Below are positions 59,001 through 62,000 of a stretch of DNA of 64,000 nt, in pieces. Source of the DNA: Sthenelais limicola (taxonomy: Eukaryota; Annelida; Polychaeta; Phyllodocida; Sigalionidae); the NCBI GenBank assembly GCA_942159475.1, contig OW804099.1, positions 15,557,999 to 15,621,998 of the forward strand, in the 5' to 3' direction. How positions within the stretch are numbered: the stretch's first letter is position 1; every line of letters starts with the position of its first letter. A program made the position numbers and the translations under genes. The notes beneath the pieces were generated by a model. It ran no database searches. It saw only the letters and a list, made by a program, of their open reading frames with translations, and had not been told where the DNA came from.

Positions 59001-62000
59001 AATTGGTTGATTCAGAAATAAAAACTCGATTTTGAGAAGAAAAAAAAAAGACTTAAGGGCTTAGTCCACTAAGCCGATTCTCATAGAACTTAGTGCAAAA
59101 GAGTCCTGTGCAGCGCAAAATCGCATGAGAATCGGCTTGGTGGACTAGGCCCTGTAGACTCAATTTTGAGTAAATAAGAGAAGTATTGTGTGCTTACCTT
59201 GACGTTGGTCATGCTCATTATATTGCCACAATCATCCATATACTGTTTGAGATCCTTTTCCTGCAACACAACACCAGCAATTAGTATAATAGTGTCTGCT
59301 AACAACTTACTGCAACCCACTTATAAGAGACGATAAGATAAGAGAATTGTTTATTTGCCATAAGGGCGTTTTGGCAGACAGGTCGTGGTCATCTTCCAGA
59401 CCAGGCCTTTCTTGTTCCCTTTGTTGTTCTACCTTTATCTACTCTACGTTAACAGTAAACAGTAAACCTGTACAGGTCTTACACAATATGTATAATCGCA
59501 ATAAAACTTGTCAACAAAGTTGAGTACAATATGAATTATCAATGAGAAATAGACTATATGATAATAATGATGCTGTCTTCCCAACTTATGACATCAGGCC
59601 ATCCAAAATCCGAAGACTGATGACAAAATGTGCGATAAAAGCAGCAACAAGCCGTGATACTCACTAATATACTTGTGAACCTGTTTACTACAGAAACAGT
59701 ACACAAGGGAATGTCTGTATCTGGCTTCACCTTGTTGACCTGTAGCTGGCTTATCTCACTTTACTAGTTTAGTTTACTATACTTTTATTTTAGTTTATTT
59801 CAACTCCCATTTTATTTTAGTGACCCTCTGGAAGAGCTATGGTTTTCACAGAAAAATTGACTGTGTAAAATTGACTTCCGACTACTCCTTTTCCGACTAC
59901 TGCTCTTATTTCTACAACAATATATGCCAGGATAACTTATCCAAGTCTTACATAGTAAAGTTAACAAAATAAAACATGACCCTTTTCACTTTTTGAAAGA
60001 ATGTAGTTTTATTTTCTTAACTTTACTATGTAAGACTTGGATAAGTTATCCTGCCATACTCTCGGCTGTTTCAATTCAATTCAAGAATTCTCATGTTGAT
60101 TGGTATGCTACTGTGCCATATAAGTTGTCAATTATCTTTTAATCTCTTTCTCATCAATTGATAATATTATTATGATCTTTACTACTTACCAAATATTCGA
60201 AGACTAGAGTGAGTGACTTTTCTGTATGTATGATGTCATGTAGAGTGACGATATTGGCGTGTTTAAGGTCCCGTAACAACGATACTGCAACAAAGGTAAC
60301 AATGTTAGCAACAGTTAGTGACGATATTGGCGTGTTTAAGGTCCCGTAACAACGATACTGCAACAAAGGTAACAATGTTAGCAACAGTTAGTGACGATAT
60401 TGGCGTGTTTAAGGTCCCGTAACAACGATACTGTAACAAAGGTAACAACGTTAGCAACAGTTAGTGACGATATTGGCGTGTTTAAGGTCCCGTAACAACG
60501 ATACTGCAACAAAGGTAACAACGTTAGCAACAGTTAGTGACGATATTGGCGTGTTTAAGGTCCCGTAACAACGATACTGTAACAAAGGTAACAACGTTAG
60601 CAACAGTTAGTGACGATATTGGCGTGTTTAAGGTCCCGTAACAACGATACTGCAACAAAGGTAACAATGTTAGCAACAGTTAGTGACAATATTGGCGTGT
60701 TTAAGGTCCCGTAACAACGATACTGCAACAAAGGTAACAATGTTAGCAACAGTTATATCATTTGACGATTTAATTCTGAAATGCGTTGTTTGTATTAATT
60801 ATTAGAGGAATCAAGGGCAACGATAGTCAATACAACTTTGCTGTTTATAGTGTCCGCAGCGTGACGTCATTAAAAAAAAGTCCCGTCGATATCATTATCT
60901 TTATATTTAAAAAAAAAATCAATTTTATTCGGATTGATAAAACATGTTGCACATGTAGATATTTTCATTGTCAATTTGTGTGGATTATTACAAGAGGAAT
61001 CAAGAGAAACGACCTTTGATCTAAGTTTGCTGTTTTTCAGCATTTGCGTGGCGTGACATTATACAAATAGTCGACGTAGGACTAGTTCTACATCAGTTCA
61101 CAGCTGTAGATCTCCTGGTTGTAGAATACATATATACTAATGTACCATGTACACTTTTAGGATTTTAAAAAATACTGTCTGGTCTAGCTTTAGTTCTACA
61201 GTGGAACCTCGCATGAAGACCACCTCTCTATTAAGACTAGTTTCTCTCAAGTCACAAATTGTTTTTTTTTTTTATTAGATTAGCCCCTCTAAAGAGATCA
61301 CCTCGCTATGAGACCACAAATCGTTTAGTCCCAAGGGTGGTCTCAATAGAGATGTTTCACTGTATATACTATACTTTCTATACTATGTTTTATGATTGCC
61401 AAATAAAGCACTACGTTTTATTGTTCATTAATTCAAAGGAATATAAAAACAAAATTAAAATGACAAAAACAGTAGTCTACAAAAATAAATGCTAAATAAG
61501 CATGTATTTGTCCGAATAGCTGTAACCAGTTCAGGACAGCATTCAGAAACAATTTAATGATTTAAAATTACAAGAAGTAACAAATGTACAGAAAGCGTCT
61601 AGTACAGGGCGCAAAATGTTATCCATAAAGGGGTAATATTTAACCAGTCTTATTATATAAATATCATATTATATTGGAATCTGCAAATTATGTATAAAAC
61701 TAAAAATTGACATGTTAAGATTAAGACTAATGAGAAAGTTAGCTAGTAAGGGTCCCTTGGAAGATCAGCATCTAAACATATGCTGAAAGGACCATCCTGT
61801 TTCATGTTATTATAATTAGAATGTAAGTGTATGAAGTGAAATAAAGTTATTCATATACGTACCTTCCCGGATTGCCGTACATGGTGCTCCCTCCTCATGC
61901 TCTAGTCTGATTTCTTTTAACGCCACCAGGGCGTCAGTAAGCCGTGATTTACCTTTGAACACAGTTGCATAAGTACCCTGCAACACATATAGGGGGCGCC

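Follow-up and report, generated by a model that had tools for sequence, protein, structure and literature searches.

A kinase gene of the annelid Sthenelais limicola with tandemly repeated splice acceptors

Why would a kinase gene carry one of its splice acceptors seven times over? The question is raised by a 64,000-nucleotide stretch of contig OW804099.1 of the annelid Sthenelais limicola (the window, to which positions refer unless another locus is given), where the boundary between an intron and an exon of a PCTAIRE-type kinase gene has been multiplied into a tandem array, here called array 1. The array is real, belongs to a known kind and has company in its gene: a second acceptor sits in an array of nine copies (array 2) and another has a single decayed duplicate. 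On the evidence of sequence, the arrays are probably boundary-spanning minisatellites, of the type named mirages in amphioxus, which are tolerated as the acceptor used in splicing is mostly that of the copy attached to the true exon.

Results

The twelve exons of the gene that we placed join into one open frame of 381 residues to the stop, and every intron is GT-AG. The top match of the joined sequence in the PDB is CDK16 (9r2i_C, E 7.4e-195), in which residues 1-373 of the query align with residues 12-385 of the CDK16 chain and the PCTAIRE motif is common to both. This match, which runs across the kinase domain and includes PCTAIRE, assigns the predicted protein to the CDK16/17/18 (PCTAIRE) group. 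Upstream of 63403, no kinase exons were found by a weak motif search that covered 20 kb.

Tandem Repeats Finder (TRF) places array 1 at 60244-60755, with a period of 73, 7.0 copies and 98% matches, and a query of the assembly with the array returned one match. In transcript order, each copy consists of a branch-like TGCTAAC, a pyrimidine-rich stretch and CAG, together making up the intronic part, and then the exonic part. The acceptor AG is present in 7/7 copies, and only 3 of the 73 unit positions vary: two are intronic (-19, -4), and the third is exonic, a synonymous difference found in the first-transcribed copy. The full 95-base exon, the fourth that could be placed in the gene (E4), is joined solely to the last copy, with its first exonic base at 60284. 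There the repeated exonic bases (TATCG...CACT) continue into CTACATG; in the six decoys, whose first exonic bases are 60722, 60649, 60576, 60503, 60430 and 60357, they are followed by AACTGTTGC. By our reading of the break points by eye, junction homology amounts to 1 base only. A preliminary description of the locus had reported a 73-bp unit present seven times, an AG in every copy, six decoys ahead of the only copy joined to the full exon and a unit length that is no multiple of three, and TRF and the copy listing bear all of this out. The branch-like TGCTAAC, pyrimidine tract and AG that it assigned to the unit are also there; the exonic share, given as 40 bases, is 41. It was right that entry at a decoy is predicted to truncate the kinase, and its details need amending: instead of about a dozen residues followed by N-C and a stop, use of any of the six decoys would keep the reading correct for 14 residues beyond the junction, followed by N-C-C-stop, ending the protein after 115 of 381 residues.

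Array 2, missed by that description, covers the acceptor of exon E9. Its copies are 96% alike according to TRF, with five variable positions; AG is kept in 9/9, and the last copy alone runs into the 247-base exon. After GGGTGTAGGATGTATATTTTAT, the sequence continues as GAGATGG in the authentic copy or as CTAATC in a decoy. Ahead of the array stands GTATATTTTAT, an exact match to the end of the array's own unit; of the 11-bp direct repeats, one is intronic and one exonic. Short direct repeats shared at break points are the expected footprint of slippage, and the GTATATTTTAT shared by the break points of array 2 fits this expectation.

Near-identical copies could also come from the assembly itself, through expansion of a single- or low-copy boundary during assembly or polishing, and for one amphioxus mirage the draft-genome assembly is described as seemingly aberrant (PMC3087553). 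Against this, both arrays hold internal variants in irregular order. HiFi reads are far longer than the 511 bp of array 1. The S. limicola assembly, wpSthLimi1.1, is HiFi-based, at 45-fold coverage and with a quality value (QV) of 59.9 (PMC10352628), which makes an artefact unlikely; taking all of this together, we consider it extremely improbable.

We scanned the 12 acceptors and 11 donors of the gene for further copies of their boundaries within 700 bases of flanking intron, with 300 shuffles each. Three acceptors beat all 300 shuffles: those of arrays 1 and 2, and that of exon N1, whose decayed duplicate, also overlooked before, matches at 23/30 bases in the scan and, when checked by BLAST, at 91.7% over 24 nt. 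As it sits in an AGAT microsatellite (54815-54974), a match at the E10 donor (20/30, p = 0.003) was discounted. The N1 duplicate retains its AG, and its use would insert 17 in-frame codons without a stop. This is in keeping with the idea, put forward for amphioxus globins, that new introns or exons are in the course of being born, with decoys serving as extra exonic sequence in some transcripts or turning into exons or introns; intron gain from such repeats has been proposed (PMC3087553), and human boundary repeats can yield new introns (PMC2812944). The two arrays themselves argue otherwise, since neither 73 nor 50 bp is divisible by three, every decoy in them meets a stop and neither unit has a strong donor, and birth of an intron or exon is a very doubtful explanation of what we see.

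In array 2, which has eight decoys, entry at any one of them would end the protein after 251 residues. A premature stop, as expected of decoys in regulated poison splicing, is thus predicted for 14/14 decoys of the two arrays. Within the unit of array 1 the top-scoring GT reaches 0.09, where the real donors of the gene, 11 in number, score 5.8-11.2, and in-unit GTs in array 2 score at most 0.16, except for one copy with 3.06. As no in-unit donor comes near the strength of the gene's own, a decoy would be usable only via read-through as far as the real donor, and the resulting exons would measure 168-533 bases instead of 95 in array 1 and 297-647 instead of 247 in array 2. Use of decoys as cassettes was rejected, neither unit holding a good donor. 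Scored with a small matrix of ten acceptor sites, the array 1 decoys reach 4.4-6.5 and the authentic acceptor 6.43 (four decoys match it and two of the six are clearly lower). In array 2 each of the eight decoys outscores (0.09-2.99) the authentic acceptor (-0.45). With most decoys as strong as the authentic acceptors or stronger, correct choice of the acceptor, if it occurs, must depend on where the site lies and not on how strong it is.

Retention of AG in every copy is at the level that chance predicts: the probability that AG would stay intact is 0.92 for array 1, 0.81 for array 2 and 0.74 for both jointly, and selection on AG was rejected on these grounds. Variable sites in the two arrays make up 6/60 intronic and 2/63 exonic positions, a difference that is not significant (p = 0.16).

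Boundary duplications also occur elsewhere in this genome. We looked for copies of the exon in the flanking introns of all 86 myosin-head exon matches (flanks of at least 498 bp) and of 20 protein-kinase matches, the latter chosen from a total of 136 as the first 20 no longer than 300 bp and having flanks of only 350 bp; sampled matches are stretches found by hidden Markov models rather than annotated exons, and some extend beyond exon ends. Two of the 106 carry boundary duplications, both in myosin genes, and none of the 20 kinase matches does. One is a donor array (C1:29858689-29858822) with four copies of GCCTTCAAAAACATGTCCAG, one of them ending in CATG; GT follows three copies and GG the fourth, so that one donor has been lost. 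In a second myosin gene (C3:1119323-1119586), 25 exonic bases recur 95 bases upstream, across the acceptor, and no second acceptor is present. A weak match at another sampled locus, L030 (24 nt, 83%, E = 0.006), is near chance and was not counted as a boundary duplication. Nor was a full-length pair at L057 (C2:128950847-128951677), where a myosin-head exon is present twice, the copies being 75% identical and separated by 732 bp, resembling mutually exclusive exons.

Table 1. Positions in the window of the kinase gene, its repeated acceptors and the exons they serve
Feature	Position	Strand	Remarks
PCTAIRE-type (CDK16/17/18-like) kinase gene	53022..63403	-	12 exons placed within the window; 5' end lies outside the placed exons
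Array 1, seven 73-bp acceptor-boundary copies (32 intronic + 41 exonic bases)	60245..60755	-	TRF and copy listing
Six array 1 decoy copies and intronic part of the authentic copy	60285..60755	-	Copy listing
Full exon E4, 95 bp	60190..60284	-	Acceptor is the final copy of array 1; donor GTAAGT
Array 2, 50-bp copies of 28 intronic + 22 exonic bases, nine of them full, and an 11-bp remnant	56761..57221	-	Over the E9 acceptor; TRF and copy listing
Full exon E9, 247 bp	56536..56782	-	Acceptor is the final copy of array 2
Decayed acceptor duplicate of exon N1, 51 bases upstream	63403..63472	-	Exon-side base at about 63454

Discussion

The closest known counterparts of these arrays are the mirages of amphioxus, in which exon-intron boundaries, on either side, are duplicated in tandem in the manner of a minisatellite. 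They are described in Adh3, the globins BflGb6 and BflGb9, PGBD5 and troponin C, with units of 10-72 bp in Adh3 and 150-160 bp in the globins, unstable length and, reportedly, undisturbed splicing of the normal mRNA (PMC3087553, PMC3902484). Arrays 1 and 2 likewise consist of tandem units across an exon-intron boundary with splice signals within the copies, and likewise retain one authentic boundary in a gene that is intact. They differ in their host, an annelid and not a cephalochordate, which is a taxonomic and not a structural difference, and in that three acceptor duplications fall in one kinase gene, two of them as arrays of nearly identical copies. Internal tandem repeats are also placed at exon-intron boundaries in human segmental duplications, where they can alter splicing (PMC2812944); those vary between paralogs and can form novel introns or stay in the exon, whereas the worm repeats concern one gene and offer no good in-unit donor. 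The metallothionein genes of earthworms are described as having minisatellites inside introns, along with tandemly duplicated exons that do not appear in transcripts (PMC12783039), unlike the worm unit, which crosses the splice boundary, and in C. elegans minisatellites are linked to multiple splicing decisions, as intronic motifs and not as boundary arrays (PMC4039745).

A mechanism that would produce and maintain such arrays can be put together from these features. Slippage or unequal exchange, in array 2 between the 11-bp direct repeats, would give rise to the copies, and the same process would keep them homogeneous. The spliceosome would mostly join the upstream exon to the last acceptor, which has a good donor 95 or 247 bases away. 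Decoys lack such a donor of their own, and products that leak through would carry stops and presumably be destroyed. By exon definition, an exon near a donor is recognised as a unit. The sequence nearest the donor would then be recognised as the exon and the last acceptor would win, as expected both from exon definition and from results with duplicated beta-globin acceptors. In the latter constructs, which cite Reed and Maniatis 1986, human beta-globin acceptors were duplicated with 14, 55 or 205 exonic bases after the upstream one, and splicing in vitro was exclusively to the distal site (PMC5389562). The worm arrays resemble them in having identical tandem acceptors with a short piece of exon after the upstream ones (41 and 22 nt); the constructs are engineered and have two acceptors, whereas the worm arrays are natural and have seven and nine.

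Several observations weigh against tolerated minisatellites as the whole account. The slippage origin of array 1 is less clear than that of array 2, given its 1 base of junction homology. Splicing of the duplicated beta-globin constructs was very inefficient in vitro, splicing is reported in the same paper to be inhibited when two acceptors are occupied at once, and an earlier report noted there has acceptor choice depend on how long the upstream exon piece is (PMC5389562); by analogy with this inefficiency, inhibition and length effect, the worm arrays may not be neutral. Their placement is a further point. Counting only arrays with at least 5 copies and at least 90% identity, which leaves out a 76% array at 53151, finding both strong arrays on acceptors has P = 0.0044 under random seed placement (post hoc). 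For the seven tandem arrays in the gene with a period of at least 10, a set that leaves out a 4-bp array at 54091, P is 0.04 for two or more on acceptors and 0.13 for two or more on any splice site (again post hoc). The rate of boundary duplication, 3/12 exons here and 2/106 matches elsewhere, is also higher in this gene (p = 0.007, post hoc). Together the placement and rate tests hint at more than random placement.

If the arrays did have a role, it might be to set the output of the gene, with tandem acceptors binding several U2AF/U2 small nuclear ribonucleoproteins (snRNPs) at once, or diverting part of the splicing to decoys, and lowering productive kinase mRNA in step with copy number. Decoy scores near or above those of the authentic acceptors (the two weaker array 1 decoys apart), truncation by all decoys, the inhibition seen when two acceptors are occupied at once in vitro and the presence of two arrays in a single gene are all in keeping with such a device. 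Retention of AG without a signal of selection, the boundary duplications in myosin genes of this genome and the exclusively distal splicing of the beta-globin series are not, and we think an output-setting device unlikely. A bolder form would make the arrays copy-number-tunable attenuators, in which concurrent occupancy slows or aborts the splicing of two introns and repeat number, which may change fast between individuals or cells, sets the amount of PCTAIRE kinase; this is a quite improbable proposal. Of the two possibilities that the preliminary description had offered, the tolerated accident is the one favoured by the second array, the myosin donor array, the chance-level retention of AG and the amphioxus mirages; splicing competition as an evolved device found no support. 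From the sequence we infer that no evolved function is needed to account for the arrays.

Tolerated boundary minisatellites would be a known kind of structure in a new phylum, as far as the located literature shows, and the novelty is modest. We located mirages in the literature for lancelets only; our search beyond amphioxus was slight, so reports from elsewhere are possible. What is surprising is the concentration of three boundary events in one conserved annelid kinase gene. Their occurrence in an annelid suggests that such arrays are a general by-product of minisatellite-rich genomes and not a lancelet oddity. Seven and nine near-identical natural acceptors also provide a ready test of how the spliceosome chooses among equal 3' splice sites, and of whether acceptor copy number alters output. 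For annotation they are a warning, as automatic predictors may start the exon at the wrong copy.

Other features of the window and sampled loci

Rfam and tRNA scans of the window gave no matches, and Pfam found no family in eight other open reading frames. Inverted-repeat sequences that by eye resemble miniature inverted-repeat transposable elements (MITEs) lie within an intron of the kinase gene at 58880-59152, and a 54-bp minisatellite of 22 copies lies upstream of the gene (L003 2058-3237). A 45-bp minisatellite of about 98 copies occupies 30412-34863; a 15-residue repeat is open on its minus strand for up to 258 codons and is probably non-coding. A long terminal repeat (LTR) retroelement spans 35763-46548, with gag-pol-like and envelope-like frames at 37426-46504 (labelled by eye) and end repeats of 205 bp, 99.5% identical, at 35763-35966 and 46344-46548. 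The same 45-bp minisatellite is found on both of its flanks, as if the element had recently inserted into that array. On the mitochondrial contig, a long TA run and some six copies of a repeat of about 329 bp (L082 4443-6948) stand beside a frame that by eye is nad1-like.
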